Source: an uncultured Bacillota bacterium
Lineage (GTDB): Bacteria; Bacillota; Clostridia; Oscillospirales; Oscillospiraceae
Assembly: GCA_947172355.1 (NCBI GenBank)
Contig: CAMWBA010000012.1
Coordinates: forward strand, 1-35,810
Length of the DNA: 35,810 nt
Direction: 5' to 3'
Below are positions 1,970-12,439 of this stretch, piece after piece. Position 1 is the stretch's first letter; the number at the start of each line of letters is the position of its first letter. The translations under genes and the position numbers were made by a program. The notes beneath the pieces are model-generated. The model saw only the letters and a program-made list of their open reading frames with translations. It was not told the DNA's origin and searched no databases.

Positions 1970-3853
1970 TTAGAACTTGCGGTAGGGTGCTAACTCCTCA
2001 GCCTGTGGCTCATCGAACACTTTAGCAAAAATTTCTCCATCCATAGTCTCATGATCCAGCAGGTATCGGGCAGTAATTTCCAGTTCCCGGCGGCAGCGGG
2101 TCAAAATAGCCTCACATTGAGCATATGCCTGGTCAATCAGCAGGCGCACCTCCTCGTCAATCACGGCGGCGACCTCCTCCGAGTAGGTTTTGGCCTGCGC
2201 CATAGACCGGCCAATAAACACCTCATCATGTCCGTTTTCAAAGACGACGCTGCCCAATTTATCACTCATTCCATAGCGCATAACCATATTCCGGGCAATA
2301 GCAGAGGCACGCTGAATGTCGCTGCCTGCACCGGTAGAGATATCCCCCAACACCAGCTGTTCTGCCACCCGGCCGCCCAGACAGCGGGCAATCTGCTCCT
2401 TCAGCTCCTTCTTTGACTGATAGGCTTTATCCTCTTCCGGCAGAGATATGGTCATACCACCCGCCTGTCCCCGAGGGATAATGGTAATCTGATGGACCGG
2501 ATCGGCGGTGGACAGCTCGTGAATTACCACAGCGTGGCCCGCCTCATGGTATGCAGTAAGGGTTCTTGCATGTTCTGTCACCACCCGGCTGCGCTTTTCC
2601 GGGCCGGCAATCACCTTGAGCATAGCATCATGGAGATCAGACATGAGAATAAATCTCCGGTCTGCCCGGGCAGCCAGCAAAGCTGCCTCATTGAGCAGAT
2701 TTTCCAAATCCGCTCCGGTGAACCCAGCTGTGGCCTTGGCCACCTCTTTCAGTGAGACGTCCTCCGCCAGCGGTTTTTGCCGTGCGTGTACCTTTAAAAT
2801 CTCCTCCCGGCCCTTAATATCGGGCAGTCCCACATAGATCTGCCGGTCAAAGCGGCCAGGCCGCAGAAGGGCAGGGTCCAGGATGTCCTGGCGATTGGTA
2901 GCAGCCAGCACAATGACCCCCTCGTTGGAGGCAAAGCCGTCCATCTCCACCAGCAGCTGGTTCAGTGTCTGTTCCCGCTCGTCGTGGCCGCCCCCCAGTC
3001 CGGCGCCCCGCTGGCGGCCCACAGCATCAATCTCGTCAATAAACACAATCGCAGGGGCATCCTTTTTGGCCTGGTCAAAGAGGTCACGTACCCGGCCTGC
3101 GCCCACTCCCACATACAGCTCCACAAAGTCGGAGCCGGAGATAGACAAAAACTTCACCCCGGCCTCTCCAGCTACCGCCTTGGCAATGAGGGTTTTTCCG
3201 GTGCCTGGAGGCCCCACCAACAGCACACCCTTGGGAATACGTGCCCCCAGTGTGGTAAATTTCTGGGGCTCCCGAAGGAACTCCACAATCTCCTGAAGCT
3301 CCTCCTTCTCCTCATCCGCTCCGGCCACATCGTCAAAGGTGACCTTCTTCCCCTGGTCGGACAAGGTGCGGGTGCGGGCACGGCTGAACCGGGCAGCTCC
3401 AGGGGCCCCGTTTCCACCGCTGGCGCTGCCCCGCTGGCGAACCATCAGATACCAGAACAGGCACAGCACCGCCGCCGCCACCAGATAGGGAACCAGATTA
3501 TACCACCAGGAGTTCTCCACACCGGGGGGATAGTCACAGCCCTTCAATATGCCGGCATCCAGCTGTTCGTTGATGATCTCACGCATATCCAGGTAAAAGA
3601 CGGCGGGATTGGCCACGTGGCAGACAACCCGGAACGACTCGCCGCCGTCCTGACCCCGAAGCGTCAGTGTAAGGGTGTTGTCTTCCAGGGTAAAGTATTC
3701 CACCTGTCCCTGGAGGAAACTGGCGCGGATCTGGCTGTAGGTGGGGGCATCCTGCCGTTCCATCCCCTGCAGGGCGGTAAAGGTAAAATATACCATCAGG
3801 GTCAGCAGCAGACACAGCGTGATGTCCCGGGGGCCAAAACGTCTCATAGGCAC
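1970..3853 (-). CDS. ftsH: ATP-dependent zinc metalloprotease FtsH
   Basis: Walker A GPPGTGKT, Walker [19 protein letters not shown] zinc site, N-terminal TM segments. Confidence 0.97.
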
Positions 3854-3872: not shown

Positions 3873-4415
3873 TCAGCCGTTGTAGACCTCCGGCTTCAAG
3901 ATGCCGATGTAGGGCAGATTGCGGTACTTTTCCGCATAATCCAGGCCGTAACCTACCACAAAGGCATCTGGTATGGTGAAGCCGCTGTAGTGCAGGTCCA
4001 CCGGTTTGGTCCGGCGATCCGGTTTATCCAGCAGAGTACACAGCCGGACAGAGGCGGGGCGGCGGTGGTTGAGTATGTTCAGCAGATAGCTCAGAGTATT
4101 GCCGCTGTCTAAAATATCCTCTACTACAATCACATGCCGTCCGGTAATGTCCTCGGTCAAATCTTTAGTAATTTGAACCTGTCCGCTGGAGGTGGTCCCG
4201 GTTCCGTAGGAGGAGACGGACATGAAGTCCAGGGTACAGGGCAGATCAATGGCGCGGCACAGGTCGGCTACGAAGATAAACGAGCCCCGCAGTACACTGA
4301 TAAGCATGATCTCCTTGCCGGTATAGTCCGCCTCAATCTGCCGGGCAATTTCATTCACCCGGTTTTTCAGCTGTTCCTCTGTAAATAATATTTCCTGAAT
4401 ATCATTCTCTAACAT
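3873..4415 (-). CDS. hpt: Hypoxanthine phosphoribosyltransferase
   Basis: PRPP motif VIVVEDILDSGNTL and overall HPRT pattern; adjacent to tilS and ftsH as commonly seen in Firmicutes. Confidence 0.95.
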   Translation of the reverse strand: MLENDIQEILFTEEQLKNRVNEIARQIEADYTGKEIMLISVLRGSFIFVADLCRAIDLPCTLDFMSVSSYGTGTTSSGQVQITKDLTEDITGRHVIVVEDILDSGNTLSYLLNILNHRRPASVRLCTLLDKPDRRTKPVDLHYSGFTIPDAFVVGYGLDYAEKYRNLPYIGILKPEVYNG

Positions 4416-4476: not shown

Positions 4477-5865
4477 CTATCCTTCGGACGGCGCAATCAC
4501 AATATGCCACGCCTCCAGCCCTTCTTCGGCGGCAAATGCCCGGTCGGGTCCCAGCCCAGCTACTGCGGCAGCCTGCCCTCCGCAGTCAAAAACAGGCAGG
4601 ACATCCCGCTGAAAACGGGGGATTTTTTCCTCAATCAGCCATTTTTTCACCGTTTTTCCCAGCCGCCCCGGAGGCGTAAACCGGTCGCCGGTGCGCCGGG
4701 GGCGCACCTCCAAGGCAGGGACCGCACACAGCCAAAAATCCCAGGGGCCCTGAGTCTGACCATGGTACTCTTCACGTGTGCAGACAACATGCCAAGGGCC
4801 GCAGTCCAAAACACCAGGGAGAGGCAGCGGTCCTACCTCCCAGGGAATCGGCCCCAACCTTGGCAGCAGCAGCAATTTTTCATAGGCACGCTGCGCATTG
4901 GTGCTATGAGGAAGATATACCTGTGCAGAGGGGGCTGTCCCCTGGCACAGCCGAAGCAAAGCGTTCAGATGGACCGCGGAGCAGTTCTGGTCCCCACCCC
5001 ACAACCGTCCCAACAACAACCGGAGTGTCCGGACGGCAATAGGACTAGGGGCGGCAGCAATAACTTCTGCATCTATAGCCAGTCCTCCTTCCCAGGGGGT
5101 CGCCTGCTCTGCCAGTTCCTGGGCCAACTGGGTGAGACAGACCTCATCGGCCCGAAGCCGGGCGGCGGTGTCTGCCAGCCGGACGGCAAAACCGGGGGCG
5201 ATATCCTCCAGCACGGGGAGCACCTGATGCCGGATGCGGTTGCGGGTATAACCGTCATCCTGATTGGAGCTGTCCTCCATATGGGGCAGGGACTGGCGGG
5301 AAAGGTAGTCCTCCACCTGCTGCCGGGTCGTGGTAAGCAGGGGGCGTATCACCCCATCCCGTCTGGGCGGAATGCCTCCCAGTCCCCGCAGTCCGCTGCC
5401 CCGAGCCAGATGAAAGAGGATGGTCTCCACATTGTCGTTGGCAGTGTGGGCAGTGGCAATCCAATCCGCCCCTACCCTCTGGGCTGTGCTGCGCAGAAAG
5501 GCATACCGCATCTCCCGGGCGGTCTCTTCCACGCCCAGTCCCCGGAGCCTCGCCTCCGCTGCCACATCTCCGCTGCCGGTATACAGGGCAACGGCGGGGA
5601 GAACACCTCTGCTGGCCGTATGCTGTGCCCCGCAGCACAGCTCCACAAACTGCTCTACAAACCGCTGATCCCGATCGGACTCCTCCCCACGAAGCCGGTG
5701 GTTGTAGTGGGCGGAAACCAGGGTAAAGCCCAGCTTGGCGCGCAGCTGATAAAGCACATGGAGCATGGCAATGGAGTCCGCACCACCGGACACGGCGCAC
5801 AGCACCTTAGACCCGGCAGGAATCAAGTCCTGCTCCCGAATAAAATCTTCAACCGTCTTCCACAC
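4477..5865 (-). CDS. tilS: tRNA(Ile)-lysidine synthase
   Basis: PP-loop SGGADSIAMLH; RTGDRFTPPGRLGKTVKKWLIEEKIP C-terminal domain. Confidence 0.95.
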   Translation of the reverse strand: MWKTVEDFIREQDLIPAGSKVLCAVSGGADSIAMLHVLYQLRAKLGFTLVSAHYNHRLRGEESDRDQRFVEQFVELCCGAQHTASRGVLPAVALYTGSGDVAAEARLRGLGVEETAREMRYAFLRSTAQRVGADWIATAHTANDNVETILFHLARGSGLRGLGGIPPRRDGVIRPLLTTTRQQVEDYLSRQSLPHMEDSSNQDDGYTRNRIRHQVLPVLEDIAPGFAVRLADTAARLRADEVCLTQLAQELAEQATPWEGGLAIDAEVIAAAPSPIAVRTLRLLLGRLWGGDQNCSAVHLNALLRLCQGTAPSAQVYLPHSTNAQRAYEKLLLLPRLGPIPWEVGPLPLPGVLDCGPWHVVCTREEYHGQTQGPWDFWLCAVPALEVRPRRTGDRFTPPGRLGKTVKKWLIEEKIPRFQRDVLPVFDCGGQAAAVAGLGPDRAFAAEEGLEAWHIVIAPSEG

Positions 5866-5947
5866 TGAAAGGACCTCCGTTTTCCTGTAGGGGCGGATAT
5901 CCCCCGCAAGAGATACGCCATATTCGCCCGCTGTTTATAGGGACAAC

Positions 5948-6820
5948 TCAGGGGACCGGCAGGATTTCTGTCACAAGATGAAGCTTTGAGGTATAACGGA
6001 CCCGATATCGCTGGGCATGCTCCAGGTTCCAGAGGCTGGATTGACTCTCCCGAAAGGGCCGCTCCATGTCGGGAGAAACATCCAACGCGTCCGGCACAAG
6101 GACCTCCACCCACTGGCTTCCGGGCTCCGTTTCGACAATATGATAACGGTGCGCATACGCCCGATAACCGCTCCCCCAGGCGCCGGGCAGATGGGCGGTA
6201 TCCGTTTGGGGATGAATCCAGACCTCCGCCTGCTCCAGCTCGCCCTCCTCCAGCTGCTCTAACTCCGCCAGCAGGGCGGGGATGTACTTCTGCGGCGCAA
6301 TCGGCGCGGACGCGGCGCCGCCCGTAAAGAGGACCGTACCATACCAGACCAGCACCATCACGGCCAGCGCGATTACCATAAACAGTCCCATAAACCTGCC
6401 GATAAGGGCGGCGCTGAGCTGGTCCAGCAGCTTTTTCAGCTCCGCCCTCCGCCGGTCCGGACCGGGGCCGCTGAGGTAGGTGAGGGATATAAACTCATCC
6501 TCCAGCCGGTCCTCCAGCGCCTTCTCCTCCGGACGGATTTGGAAAAAGCGGACCACCGTCCGGACCATCACCCGCACCTGGAGCGCGGTTCCCACGCCGT
6601 ATACCAGGACCACACCCCAGTAGGAGCGCAGCTCGCCGGTGAGGAGATCGTGGGCGGGGGAGACCTCCCCCATGGCGGAGGTGCGCAGCCAATCCACAAA
6701 GGGCGGGAAGATGGCCAGCGGGACCAGGAAAAAGCCCAGCAGACCCCAGCCGATCCCGGCAAGCAGCTCCCGGATAACCCGCCAGGCATAGGCTTCTACT
6801 TCAGCTTGTTGGGTTTTCAT
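5948..6820 (-). CDS. Uncharacterized membrane protein, paralog A of a tandem triplet (3 TM + C-terminal domain)
   Basis: ATG at 6820. Three hydrophobic segments, then a domain ending SLWNLEHAQRYRVRYTSKLHLVTEILPVP, shared with the next two genes. Confidence 0.8.
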   Translation of the reverse strand: MKTQQAEVEAYAWRVIRELLAGIGWGLLGFFLVPLAIFPPFVDWLRTSAMGEVSPAHDLLTGELRSYWGVVLVYGVGTALQVRVMVRTVVRFFQIRPEEKALEDRLEDEFISLTYLSGPGPDRRRAELKKLLDQLSAALIGRFMGLFMVIALAVMVLVWYGTVLFTGGAASAPIAPQKYIPALLAELEQLEEGELEQAEVWIHPQTDTAHLPGAWGSGYRAYAHRYHIVETEPGSQWVEVLVPDALDVSPDMERPFRESQSSLWNLEHAQRYRVRYTSKLHLVTEILPVP

Positions 6821-6882
6821 GGTTTCTCACCACCAACGGTCATAATTTCCACCGCCAGGCAGAAGTTGGCTGCTTCCTCCAT
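6817..6882 (-). CDS. Putative 21-aa microprotein between paralogs B and A
   Basis: MEEAANFCLAVEIMTVGGEKP; strong SD AAGGAGGTG-N6-ATG; stop overlaps the paralog A start as ATGA; starts 1 nt after the paralog B stop. Below the ORF-track cutoff. Confidence 0.5.
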   Translation of the reverse strand: MEEAANFCLAVEIMTVGGEKP

Positions 6883-6883
6883 A

Positions 6884-7606
6884 CTATGCACCTCCTTGGG
6901 ACTCCACAGGGGTAATCGCCACCACATAGTGGAAATGGGACGTGTAGCTGACCCGGTAGCGCCCGGCGTGTTCCCAGTTCCAGGCGACGGTCTGGGTTTC
7001 GTCAAAAAAACGGTCCTGCGCCGGGGAAAACTCCATGGCCAGCGGGACGTAGACCGATACCCACTGGTGATTGGTGTCATCTCCCAAAATCCCATAGCGG
7101 GTGGAAACCTCCGTCTGCGGCTCGGCATAGGGACCGGGCAGCCGGGCGGGATAGGTTTTGGGGCTGATCCAGACCTCCGCCTGGACCAAAAAGCTGGACG
7201 CAATCTCGTCCAGGTCCTCCCCGGCCTGGAAAAAACGGCCGGGCAGTTCTCCGTGCCGGACTATAGCCCAGATGAACAGGCAGGGAATAATCAGGCAGAC
7301 CACAACGACGGCTGGCATATGGTGGGCCCCTGCCACTCCGGTCAGCTTCCGGCAGGCGAACCGCCCAGCCAGGAAGATGATTGGAAACCCCGCCAACAGA
7401 ACCACGGCCAGCACCACATACCATAGACGGCAGATTTGGAGCAGGTGCCGGGCGGCATCCCCGGCAGAGACCGCAGGGGTCAGCAGGTTGGGAAAGACCA
7501 ATGCGCCCATGAGCAGCAGCAGCCACAACATAGCGGCAAACAGGGGCGTCAAAATCCACATCAGGTTCAAAACGTGCCGGGCGCGTTCCCAGTGGAAGCG
7601 GGTCAT
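6884..7606 (-). CDS. Uncharacterized membrane protein, paralog B (3 TM + C-terminal domain)
   Basis: Ends AWNWEHAGRYRVSYTSHFHYVVAITPVE, aligning with paralog A; SD AGGAGGG upstream of the ATG. Confidence 0.8.
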   Translation of the reverse strand: MTRFHWERARHVLNLMWILTPLFAAMLWLLLLMGALVFPNLLTPAVSAGDAARHLLQICRLWYVVLAVVLLAGFPIIFLAGRFACRKLTGVAGAHHMPAVVVVCLIIPCLFIWAIVRHGELPGRFFQAGEDLDEIASSFLVQAEVWISPKTYPARLPGPYAEPQTEVSTRYGILGDDTNHQWVSVYVPLAMEFSPAQDRFFDETQTVAWNWEHAGRYRVSYTSHFHYVVAITPVESQGGA

Positions 7607-7621
7607 GTATATCCCTCCTAG

Positions 7622-8344
7622 TTACGGAACCGGAACGATCTGCACCACCAGGCGGAACCGGGAGGTGAAGGACACCTCATACCATTGGGCCTTGTCCCAG
7701 CTCTCCACGGCGAAGCCCTCCGGATCCAGAGCGGCTTCCAGCGCCTCCGGGAAGCGGAGGACGATTCCGCTCCGGCCGGTGTCCGGGCCAAAAGCGGTCC
7801 GCCGGACCACCTGCCAGCCCTCCGGGTGATCGGTGAAAAAGGAGTCCGGAGCGGACACCTCGTGGATAAAAACGGTCATACGCTCCGCTTCTCCCGCTTC
7901 TGCCTGCTGAATGTCCGCCGCAATTTGGTTGCAGAAGGAACAGGTTCCGTTGGGCGCAAGGGCGGCCCACATCAGTATCCCAATAACCGGCAGAAGGGCC
8001 GGCAGAAGAACCAACGGGGCCGAGCGGATCTGCTTCCGAAGCTCCAGGTCCAGCTTCCGGGCCATGAGCTGGTACAGCAGAAGGGTGAGCCCCCCAAAAA
8101 GCAGTGGGGACAGGACCGCCAGCACCGAGAAGATCATGCGCCCGGTCCAATAAGCCCGCAGCAGGGCCAGGGCGGAGCGCTCCCCGACAGAACACAGCAG
8201 CAGAATGGGCGGCAGTGTCCAGCTCAAAAGCGCCAGTCCAAGCACAGCCAGCACGGCAAAGAAGGGGGCAAAGTACAGCGGAAACTGGTTTTGAGGGACC
8301 GGCGGCATGTCCCGAAAATTCGGAACTGCGTGGATTGGAGCCAT
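7622..8344 (-). CDS. Uncharacterized membrane protein, paralog C (3 TM + C-terminal domain)
   Basis: Ends ESWDKAQWYEVSFTSRFRLVVQIVPVP, same tail as A and B; starts 1 nt after the dnaB stop. Confidence 0.8.
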   Translation of the reverse strand: MAPIHAVPNFRDMPPVPQNQFPLYFAPFFAVLAVLGLALLSWTLPPILLLCSVGERSALALLRAYWTGRMIFSVLAVLSPLLFGGLTLLLYQLMARKLDLELRKQIRSAPLVLLPALLPVIGILMWAALAPNGTCSFCNQIAADIQQAEAGEAERMTVFIHEVSAPDSFFTDHPEGWQVVRRTAFGPDTGRSGIVLRFPEALEAALDPEGFAVESWDKAQWYEVSFTSRFRLVVQIVPVP

Positions 8345-8345
8345 C

Positions 8346-9710
8346 TCAGTACTCCTCCCGCCGCCGCTCCATGTCGGTGAAGGTGGTAAACTCCGGGGTC
8401 CACTGAAGCTCTACAGTTCCTATCTCGCCGTGGCGGTTCTTGGCAATGATACACTCGGCCAGATTGGGGTTTTCCGCCTCCCGGTCGTAATAGCCGTTCC
8501 GGTACAGGAAGAGTACAATATCTGCGTCCTGCTCAATGGCCCCCGATTCCCGCAGGTCAGACAGCATAGGCCGCTTGTCCTGCCGGGACTCATTGGCCCG
8601 GGACAACTGGCTCAGGCACAGGACGGGCACATTCAGCTCTTTTGCCATAATTTTGAGGGAACGGGAGATGTCCGATACAATCTGCTGCCGGTTGTCCGAG
8701 CTGCGGGTCTTCCCCCCGGCGGACTGCATCAGCTGGAGATAATCGATCACTACCAGCCCCAAATTTTCCACCCGGCGGCACTTGGCGCTGATATCGGCCA
8801 CGGTGACGCTGGAGTCGTCGTCAATCAGAATGGTGGAACGGTTGAGGGAATCGGCGGCGGCGGCGATGCTCTCCCAATCGTCGTCAGAGAGTTTTCCGGT
8901 AACCAGTTTTTTGTTGTCAATAAAGCACTCGCTGGAAATTAGCCGCAGGGCCAGCTGCTCCCGGCTCATCTCCAAAGAGAAAAAGGCCACCTTCCTGCCC
9001 GACCTTTTCCCCACCTCCAGCAGAATGTTGAGGGCCATAGAGGTCTTGCCCATGCCGGGCCGGGCGGCCAGCAGAATCAAATCCGAATTGTTCAGTCCGG
9101 AAATAGCCCGGTCCAGATCCCGCAGGCCGGTGGACAGCCCTGGAATGGAACTTTCACTGGCGGACAATTCCTCCAACCGGCTGTATACGTCAATAATAAC
9201 CTCAGAGATGGGGACCAGTCCCCGACTGGCCCGGCCCTGACGGATGGCGTAGATTCGCTGTTCCGCCGCCTCCAAAATGTCCTGGCCGGTGCCAGTGCCC
9301 CGCTGAACCATAGCCAGCAGGTCGCCGGCGGTCTCAGCCACCCGGCGCAGCAGGGTAGTATCCTGAAGGATCCCGATGTAATCCCCCACATTGGCGGCGG
9401 TGGGGGTTGCGTCCATCAGCTGGAACATGTATTCCCGAGACTGGCCCTCCACATAGAAGCCGTTCTGCCGCATATGCTCCAGCACCGTCACCGGGTCGAT
9501 GGTGAGAGAGTAGTTGAACATGGAGTAGATGGTCTCGTAAATTTCCCGATTCTGGCGCAAGTAAAAGTCCTCGGGGTGCAGTTTTTCGATCACTTCCGGC
9601 ACGCAGCGGGGGTCGATGAGCATGGAACCCAACACCGCGTGTTCCGCGTCCATATTGTGCGGCATCTGCCGCAGCAACAGTTCGTCCGTCTCTGTGGGCA
9701 ATACGGTCAC
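8346..9710 (-). CDS. dnaB: Replicative DNA helicase DnaB
   Basis: PHNMDAEHAVLGSML N-terminal domain, Walker A ARPGMGKTSMALNI, QLSRANESRQDKRPMLSDLRESGAIEQDAD. Confidence 0.97.
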   Translation of the reverse strand: MTVLPTETDELLLRQMPHNMDAEHAVLGSMLIDPRCVPEVIEKLHPEDFYLRQNREIYETIYSMFNYSLTIDPVTVLEHMRQNGFYVEGQSREYMFQLMDATPTAANVGDYIGILQDTTLLRRVAETAGDLLAMVQRGTGTGQDILEAAEQRIYAIRQGRASRGLVPISEVIIDVYSRLEELSASESSIPGLSTGLRDLDRAISGLNNSDLILLAARPGMGKTSMALNILLEVGKRSGRKVAFFSLEMSREQLALRLISSECFIDNKKLVTGKLSDDDWESIAAAADSLNRSTILIDDDSSVTVADISAKCRRVENLGLVVIDYLQLMQSAGGKTRSSDNRQQIVSDISRSLKIMAKELNVPVLCLSQLSRANESRQDKRPMLSDLRESGAIEQDADIVLFLYRNGYYDREAENPNLAECIIAKNRHGEIGTVELQWTPEFTTFTDMERRREEY

Positions 9711-9762: not shown

Positions 9763-10218
9763 TTACCCCTCTGTCACCAGCACGTTAACTATTCCGCTGA
9801 CCTCATAGCCCAGCTTGGCCTTGATCTGATAGCTGCCACAGGACTTGATGGGCTCATCCATCACCAGCTTAGCTTTGGGGATGGTAAGGCTGTGCTGGGC
9901 GGCCAGGGCCTCTGAGACCTCCTTGCCGGTGACCGCACCGAACAGGCGCCCGCCCTCGCCGGCCTTGGCGGAAATCTTCACCATCAGGCCCTCCAGCTTC
10001 TTGGCTGTGGCCTCGGCCTCCGCCTTCTCGGCGGCCTCCTGGGCCTTGCGGGCTTTCTCCTGCTGCTTCATGGTATTCACATTCTCTGCCGTGGCGGCCA
10101 CGGCCAGCTTTCGGGGCAGGAGGAAGTTGCGGGCGTAGCCGTCAGAGACCTCCACCAGCTGGCCCTTTTTCCCTTGGCCTCTCACGTCCTGCTGTAAAAT
10201 AACCTTCATTGAAATCAA
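9763..10218 (-). CDS. rplI: 50S ribosomal protein L9
   Basis: MKVILQQDVRGQGKKGQLVEVSDGYARNFLLPRKLA signature. Track start 10218 (MISMKV…); the downstream MKV is the likely start. Confidence 0.97.
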   Translation of the reverse strand: MISMKVILQQDVRGQGKKGQLVEVSDGYARNFLLPRKLAVAATAENVNTMKQQEKARKAQEAAEKAEAEATAKKLEGLMVKISAKAGEGGRLFGAVTGKEVSEALAAQHSLTIPKAKLVMDEPIKSCGSYQIKAKLGYEVSGIVNVLVTEG

Positions 10219-10453: not shown

Positions 10454-12439
10454 TCACTCCTCCGCCAAATACTGGTCAATGGCCCGAGCCAGGGCCTGGG
10501 CCACTTCGTCCACCGACTGGCCGGAAATCTGACAGCCTGCGGCGGCGGCGTTCCCGCCTCCTCCCAGTTTTTCCAGCACAAGCTGAACGTTGGTATCCCC
10601 CATAGAGCGGCCCGAGATGTTCACTTGCTCCCCGTCGGGGGAGATGACAAAGGAGGCGCCGATACCGATGATATTGAGAAGCTCGTCCGCCGCCTGGGCA
10701 GCGGTAACCCGGTTCACCGGCCTGTCAGCCATAGCCACGGCAATACCGTCCCGGTAGAGTTTCGCATTTTGAATGATGGAGTATTTGGCGATGGTGCCCG
10801 CCAAATCGTTCTGGAAGAGTTTTTTCACTTCGGCGGTATCAGCGCCGGAGCGGCGCAGGAAGGCGGCGGCCTCAAAGGTACGTCCGCCGGTGCGCATGGT
10901 GAAATTCTTGGTATCCAGCACGATACCGGCCAGCAGCGCCTCGGCCTCGGCCCGGAGAAGATGGTTGGGCTCCATAATATACTGGAGCAGCTCGGTGACC
11001 AATTCAGAGGCGGAAGAGGCGTATGGCTCGTGGTAATTCAGCGCCGCCCCCTCAATATAGGTGGCCGCACGGCGGTGGTGGTCAATCACCGCCACCCGGT
11101 TGCAGGACTGAAGCACCTCCAAGGCCTGGACCTGTTCCGGGCGGTTAGTGTCCACCACCACCACCAGAGACCGGGCGTCGGCAATCAGCAGGGCCTCCTG
11201 GGCGGAGAGGAAGCAGTCGTGATACTCCGGCAGCTGAAGCAGACGGTCAATCAGTTCCTGGGAGGGGGGATTGCCCGCCTCCCGGATGATGTGGGCGGGG
11301 ATTCCGTTTTTCCGGCACAGGGCACATACTCCGGCGGCCGCACCCACCGCGTCGTTGTCAGGGGCCTTGTGGCCCATAATAAATACCTGAGAGGAGTCGG
11401 AGACCAGGGAGGACAGGGCATTGGCCATCACCCGGCTCTTCACTTTGGTGCGCTTCTCCGTCTCCTTGGACCGGCCTCCGTAGAACTCAAAGGTGAACTT
11501 GTTGCGGATCACCGCCTGGTCTCCCCCCCGGGAGAGGGCCATGTCGATGGACAGGTTGGCAAAGTCCAACAGTTCCTTATAGCTGTCCCCATCCTTTCCG
11601 ATGCCGATGGACAACGAAGCATTGATTCCGCCGAGGTTGACCACCTGGTGAACCAGATCCAGAATATCGAATTTGGTCTCAATAAATTTGGACAGATAGC
11701 GCTCCTCAAAGATAAACAGGTAGCGGTCACGCTGATAGCGGCGCAGCAGGCCGCCGGTGTGGGCCATCCAGTTCTCCAGCCGGGAGTCCAGCTCCGCCAT
11801 GATGTTGGAACGCTCGTTTTCCGTGGGATTTTTCAAAAGGTCATCATAGTTGTCCAGCAGCAGCACCGCCGCTACCGGCCGGCTGGCCTGATACTGGTCC
11901 CGGGTGAAGGACAGCTCTGTGATGTCCACCCAATAGGTGGTGGCCAAAAAACCGCCGCCCCGCCCGCTGGAGCGCACCAAATGGCCAAAGACCAAAAACC
12001 GCCGGCCACTGTAGTCCACATCGGTGGGACACTGGTTCTTTCCCTCCATCAGCCATCGGGTGTCAAAGCCGGGGATGAGGGCGGACAGTTTAGTGTCATA
12101 TAGGTGTTCCCGCTGGTCGGACAGGCGCAGGAAGCGGTCGTTGGTCCAAATAATATCGTCGCTCTCAGGCCGGAACAGCACCATCGGCAGCGGGGAATTG
12201 ACCATAGTATCTTTGGTGGCGGAGTCCACATTGCCGGTGTAGCTTTCTAAGTATTGGTTGATCTCTTTGCGGCGGCGGCGGGCCGCCTCCCGGCTGTAGA
12301 GGGCCAGACAGACCACCACCGCCAGTTCCAGCGCCGCAAGCGGCGGGGAGAACACGGCGGACAGCAGGGCAAAGACAATCAGGCAGCCAAAATACAGCCG
12401 GAAACTGGGCTGAAGCAGTTTGTTGAGTTTTCGATGCAA
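10454..12439 (-). CDS. gdpP: GdpP-type cyclic-di-AMP phosphodiesterase (degenerate PAS/GGDEF plus DHH/DHHA1)
   Basis: Two N-terminal TMs, degenerate GGDEF region (SIGIGKDGDSYKELLDFANLSIDMAL), DHH-family motifs MGHKAPDNDAVGAA and VIDHHRR, C-terminal GGGGN. Confidence 0.93.
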   Translation of the reverse strand: MHRKLNKLLQPSFRLYFGCLIVFALLSAVFSPPLAALELAVVVCLALYSREAARRRRKEINQYLESYTGNVDSATKDTMVNSPLPMVLFRPESDDIIWTNDRFLRLSDQREHLYDTKLSALIPGFDTRWLMEGKNQCPTDVDYSGRRFLVFGHLVRSSGRGGGFLATTYWVDITELSFTRDQYQASRPVAAVLLLDNYDDLLKNPTENERSNIMAELDSRLENWMAHTGGLLRRYQRDRYLFIFEERYLSKFIETKFDILDLVHQVVNLGGINASLSIGIGKDGDSYKELLDFANLSIDMALSRGGDQAVIRNKFTFEFYGGRSKETEKRTKVKSRVMANALSSLVSDSSQVFIMGHKAPDNDAVGAAAGVCALCRKNGIPAHIIREAGNPPSQELIDRLLQLPEYHDCFLSAQEALLIADARSLVVVVDTNRPEQVQALEVLQSCNRVAVIDHHRRAATYIEGAALNYHEPYASSASELVTELLQYIMEPNHLLRAEAEALLAGIVLDTKNFTMRTGGRTFEAAAFLRRSGADTAEVKKLFQNDLAGTIAKYSIIQNAKLYRDGIAVAMADRPVNRVTAAQAADELLNIIGIGASFVISPDGEQVNISGRSMGDTNVQLVLEKLGGGGNAAAAGCQISGQSVDEVAQALARAIDQYLAEE

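Follow-up and report, generated by a model that had tools for sequence, protein, structure and literature searches.

Between dnaB and tilS, the window (the whole 35,810-nucleotide stretch of DNA that was analysed, from an uncultured bacterium of the Oscillospiraceae) carries three tandem genes, A, B and C, whose products are an undescribed family of small predicted membrane proteins, to date observed in no other bacterial order. The family is new but its kind is ordinary: the membrane proteins are optional, and their genes occupy one chromosomal position, where they are duplicated in tandem. The overall picture of an optional tandem membrane family at dnaB-tilS can be held with good confidence. 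What the analysis adds is a previously undescribed domain family, whose profile can find members across a bacterial order, together with a clear natural record of how genes were gained, lost and left as scars at a single location. Currently, this is a useful annotation and not a surprise.

Gene Arrangement at dnaB-tilS

The gene order on the minus strand is dnaB, C, B, A, tilS, hpt, ftsH. The replicative helicase gene dnaB (8346..9710), an ORF with matches in 60 of 64 congeners, is the upstream neighbor of C, while tilS (4477..5865) is the downstream neighbor of A and is followed by hpt (3873-4415) and ftsH (1970-3853). Two ORFs upstream of dnaB are taken to be rplI (9763..10218, minus strand) and, preceding it, a gene for a GdpP-like DHH phosphodiesterase (10454-12439). 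The sole RNA gene found in the window, a minus-strand tRNA-Arg (CCG) at 1809-1885, adjoins ftsH.

Paralogs C (7622..8344) and B (6884..7606) are 240 amino acids long and paralog A (5948..6820) is 290. All three minus-strand ORFs are intact, and their positions, strand and two closest gaps agree with those reported in the first-pass annotation. The stop of dnaB and the start of C are 1 nt apart, C and B are separated by 15 nt and B and A by 63 nt. A Shine-Dalgarno-like GGAGGAG for C sits within the 3' end of dnaB. Based on these tight junctions and on the finding that no promoter or terminator signal in the array clearly exceeds the shuffled background, co-transcription of dnaB-C-B-A-tilS is likely, as had been proposed. 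The further proposal that the genes are embedded in the dnaB-tilS operon holds for the window; within the genus, their presence there is optional.

The gap between B and A contains a relic ORF of 21 codons, MEEAANFCLAVEIMTVGGEKP (6817..6882, minus strand), whose stop overlaps the start of A (ATGA). The corresponding relatives end in ...FHLAVEIVPVGGEEP, and the DNA of the 63-nt gap aligns with the tails of C and D genes from three congeners (G022, G078, and G005) at local scores of 18-20, against a shuffle maximum of 12-13. The relic is what remains, at the 3' end, of a fourth copy that has been lost, and the window therefore once had at least four copies.

The spacer between A and tilS (about 5870-5945) contains ATATCCGCCCCTACA, which resembles the CCGCCCCTACA element found in the dnaB-tilS gaps of G071 and G007 (L033 and L059). 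Those gaps also carry a GC-rich palindrome (GGGCGCGACGAC...GTCGTCGCGCCC).

A Shared C-Terminal Domain Behind Divergent Membrane Parts

The three proteins share a C-terminal domain of about 115 residues, encoded at about 5951-6301 in A, 6887-7255 in B and 7625-7948 in C, where it follows a multi-helix membrane part. In BLOSUM62 local alignments with 1000 shuffles, the domains of A and B score 229 (z 38), those of A and C 103 (z 16) and those of B and C 77 (z 11). A genome-wide search with A recovers B at an E value of 1e-22 and C at 5e-5. The common domain and the similar tails described in the first-pass annotation are thus present, and the homology of the domains supports its reading of the genes as tandem paralogs. 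The membrane parts, compared pairwise, show no significant similarity (z 0.6-2.1 against shuffles); they are nevertheless considered related because intermediates bridge them in an alignment of 24 proteins.

In this alignment, the proteins share three helices. A conserved loop joins helices 1 and 2, a loop of highly variable length joins helices 2 and 3, and the domain comes last. The loop after helix 1 reads PAxxLLxGYxxWY in the A and D types. Between TM2 and TM3, paralog A possesses a charged loop of about 55 residues and B almost none. The domain itself comprises a helix (DLxQIExGxLE) and then a strand (VWISPK). Further strands lie around TRYGxIG and WVxVYVP, and a second helix (WNxEHAQ) precedes the final hairpin (YxVxYTSNFHLVVEIxPV). 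Three hydrophobic segments had been assigned to each protein. The orthologue of A in G004 has three, while the second segment of A from the window itself falls under the Kyte-Doolittle threshold. Basic residues, the one basis for orientation, place 11 K/R in loop 2 of A and 2 in loop 1, so that an N-in/C-out topology, and hence an extracytoplasmic C-terminal domain, is probable.

Relation to Known Families

Searches against Pfam and NCBIfam return nothing over the cut-off for the window proteins, the 24 aligned members or the distant members, with the exception of one DUF6709 segment. PADLOC models assign no family to any of nine proteins, the window proteins have no significant match in PHROGs, and profile searches find no relative among PDB sequences. 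These results agree with the initial impression that no known family is involved, and they rule out a known family under another name.

The fold can be described only loosely. AlphaFold2, given as input nothing beyond the three window sequences, models full-length A with a pLDDT of 52 and the domain of B with a pLDDT of about 56.5 and a pTM of 0.54, both of low confidence. In the low-confidence model of the B domain, the elements run helix, beta1-beta2-beta3, helix, beta4-beta5, which is the order of an OB fold. Many of the weak Foldseek matches to this model contain OB folds, with TM-scores of about 0.4 and a best E value of 0.033, and none is significant. The OB-like strand order is therefore no more than a hint from a model.

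Two described families resemble these proteins in part. Like the family here, NfeD (PF01957) combines helices with a small C-terminal beta domain, and the low-confidence model shares the OB strand order. However, there is no sequence relation: alignment by hhalign to 13 NfeD proteins from related genomes gives a probability of 0.2% and an E value of 0.31, and the genome of the window has its own NfeD elsewhere (C66). DUF6709 (PF20456) forms the N-terminal part of a fusion protein in G302 that also contains a distant family member; the gene lies directly upstream of the BREX genes brxA and brxC (L127, 1030-2490). DUF6709 is nonetheless not the parent family, for it covers a different segment of the fused protein and matches no window protein, and the window's genome contains a separate DUF6709 ORF (C90). 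In the literature, nothing was found on DUF6709, and DUF1266, which is encoded near another distant member, is only mentioned in passing.

Distribution of the Family

A genus survey covered 64 species. Of these, 60 gave a dnaB match, and in 57 a single contig showed both flanks of the dnaB-tilS gap. The gap measures 816-2854 bp and contains family members in 13 of the 57 and measures 0-151 bp in the other 44, which retain dnaB, tilS and usually hpt and ftsH. A 14th carrier, G057, has its array spread over two contigs, with the third copy adjoining tilS. A profile search of the 64 congener genomes finds 28 strong copies in 14 genomes, all between dnaB and tilS, with one to three copies per carrier. 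Copy number in this interval, for which a survey had been suggested, thus varies across species. The orthologue of B in G022 is 69% identical to that of the window.

Marked divergence between the copies had been taken to suggest distinct roles or hetero-oligomers. This suggestion is not supported: some genomes have a single copy, which is of the A type in G004, of the C type in G009 and D-like in G021 and G055. Because these single copies belong to different subgroups, no fixed complex of A, B and C can be required.

In one congener, G044 (L030), a separate 213-amino acid ORF with one TM segment, which to the eye resembles a C39-type peptidase, lies about 1437-2078 bp past the end of dnaB. It sits within the array, and the copy downstream of it is without a 5' end.

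Beyond the genus, two genomes from other genera of the same family (G092 and G145) carry one member each at dnaB-tilS. In a sample of the order, members occur in at least five of 296 genomes besides that of the window (about 2%), and in a sample of the phylum no member is among the matches listed, apart from the window's own genome; both counts are lower bounds. The members found elsewhere in the order are rare, often longer and located at sites other than dnaB-tilS. Their neighbors include an Hsp70/J-domain pair, brxA, DUF1266/DUF3137 genes, an AddA-like helicase and a Cas3-like gene, a variety which, as far as gene context can tell, points to no one role. In G1126, a distant member is the last of three successive genes, behind those for Hsp70 and a weak DnaJ-domain protein (L126, 4595-7707).

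Gain, Loss, and Selection

On a housekeeping tree built from dnaB, tilS, hpt and ftsH, presence and absence in the genus amount to nine changes, of which at least seven are forced by supported branches. The simplest reading is an old presence followed by repeated loss, because the same site is occupied in other genera, and scars support it. G053, which has no gene at the site, retains in its 141-bp gap the scar RYRVRSFGNFHFVTEIPPSP, corresponding to the C-terminal hairpin of an A-type gene. In G078 and G013, C-type copies have large in-frame deletions. Moreover, the gene tree supports orthologous subgroups A, B and D and two C groups, each spanning several species. Together, the roughly nine changes, the scar in G053 and the relic of a fourth copy in the window indicate a birth-and-death family of optional, putative envelope proteins and not a fixed component of the operon.

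The dN/dS ratios of 13 orthologue pairs range from 0.19 to 0.44 and are alike in the membrane part and the domain, indicating that these are real genes under purifying selection. With their conservation across species, this rules out spurious ORFs. The family proteins evolve faster than DnaB as judged by identity: the closest orthologues are 69-71% identical, while DnaB, compared in the same species or close ones, reaches 86-89%.

Possible Function

The explanation we favor, which taken as a whole is tentative and slightly short of an even chance, is as follows. Roughly three helices would anchor the domain of about 115 residues, which from the charge distribution is probably extracytoplasmic, and the genes, which are homologous and under purifying selection, multiply and vanish at one fixed site between dnaB and tilS, leaving scars. 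The site may be a permissive gap between cistrons, where genes would be expressed for free from a housekeeping operon, and the proteins would be unconnected with DnaB or TilS. Each might act alone or as a homo-oligomer with a surface-facing binding domain, and the benefit might be conditional, for instance if they shield the envelope from some variable external agent such as a bacteriocin, an inhibitor or the entry of a phage. A conditional protective benefit would account for the optional presence, rapid divergence and duplication. In more general terms, what speaks for a conditional advantage at the cell surface, and against any essential link to DnaB, TilS or FtsH, is that the genes are optional, duplicate, diverge fast and become lost.

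An extracytoplasmic binding or immunity-type role is favored with low confidence, and an immunity or protection role in particular is rather unlikely. Immunity or exclusion gene arrays have tandem copies, fast divergence, frequent loss, scars and a membrane location. The family at dnaB-tilS resembles them in having tandem copies, divergence, loss, scars and a membrane location. In contrast to such arrays, it has no adjoining toxin, bacteriocin or defense gene, and PADLOC is negative. If a protective role is true, the dnaB-tilS gap would be a place to seek strain-variable surface functions. A broader proposal describes a new class of modular envelope receptors or immunity proteins in this order, in which one outer domain is combined with interchangeable cytoplasmic or membrane modules (a charged loop, DUF6709, DnaJ-type zinc motifs, a TKREFF helical module or none). 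Their genes would form a diversifying array at dnaB-tilS and, in other places, would sporadically stand next to Hsp70/J or BREX genes. This proposal is distinctly unlikely.

Several other explanations can be weighed against an optional surface function. An envelope-stress or signaling sensor, in which a ligand from the host or the wall is bound by the outer domain and the signal passes through the variable loop in the cytoplasm, would fit the contrast between the long charged loop of A and its near absence in B, as well as the strong sharing of the outer domain. However, the cytoplasmic part of B and C is too short for an output domain and there is no regulator gene beside the array, so this reading is unlikely. 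The position upstream of tilS-hpt-ftsH is fixed in three genera and the junctions are tight, as would be expected of functional partners of the host operon, e.g., modulators of the FtsH membrane protease or of c-di-AMP/translation housekeeping. Such a partnership is improbable given that 44 of the 57 assessable congeners lack the genes although they retain dnaB and tilS, and in most cases hpt and ftsH as well, that distant members are located far from this operon and that one to three copies from different subgroups suffice.

The patchiness in the genus and in about 2% of sampled order genomes (a lower bound) would also suit the cargo of a mobile element or prophage inserting at dnaB-tilS. A phage minor capsid gene is found near one distant member, and a stretch of this member's variable N-terminal part has a 30%-identical counterpart in one faecal phage record. 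Searches of viral contigs and of phage and plasmid records do not otherwise support such an origin: no relatives were found in viral contigs or plasmids, and a D-type member is unmatched in phage and plasmid records. Furthermore, no integrase or recombinase ORF was seen between dnaB and tilS, the copies are old and tend to group by orthologous type, and the empty site of G053 bears a scar in place of a clean target. Mobile cargo is thus very improbable. It is also very improbable that the proteins are the membrane component of accessory Hsp70/J-protein modules, with the dnaB-tilS type as a reduced form minus the cytoplasmic adaptor. The G1126 member comes after genes for an Hsp70 and a weak DnaJ-domain protein, those of G438 and G1117 have two CxxC motifs that resemble the DnaJ zinc region before their last helices, and the G1117 member lies near DUF1266 genes. 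Even so, these are single cases, three of about 12 distant contexts, none concerns the dnaB-tilS type, and Pfam calls no zinc domain in the G438 or G1117 protein.

Translation Start of the A Orthologues

The A orthologues of four congeners (G005, G022, G016, and G078; L023, L022, L028, and L060) possess no ATG, GTG or TTG before helix 1. Their frame opens instead at an ATA that overlaps the TAG with which the upstream gene stops (GAGGAGCCATAGAAA); the window reads CCATGA at this point. The N-terminal segment so encoded is conserved between species, and the arrangement suggests a rare AUA start coupled to termination.
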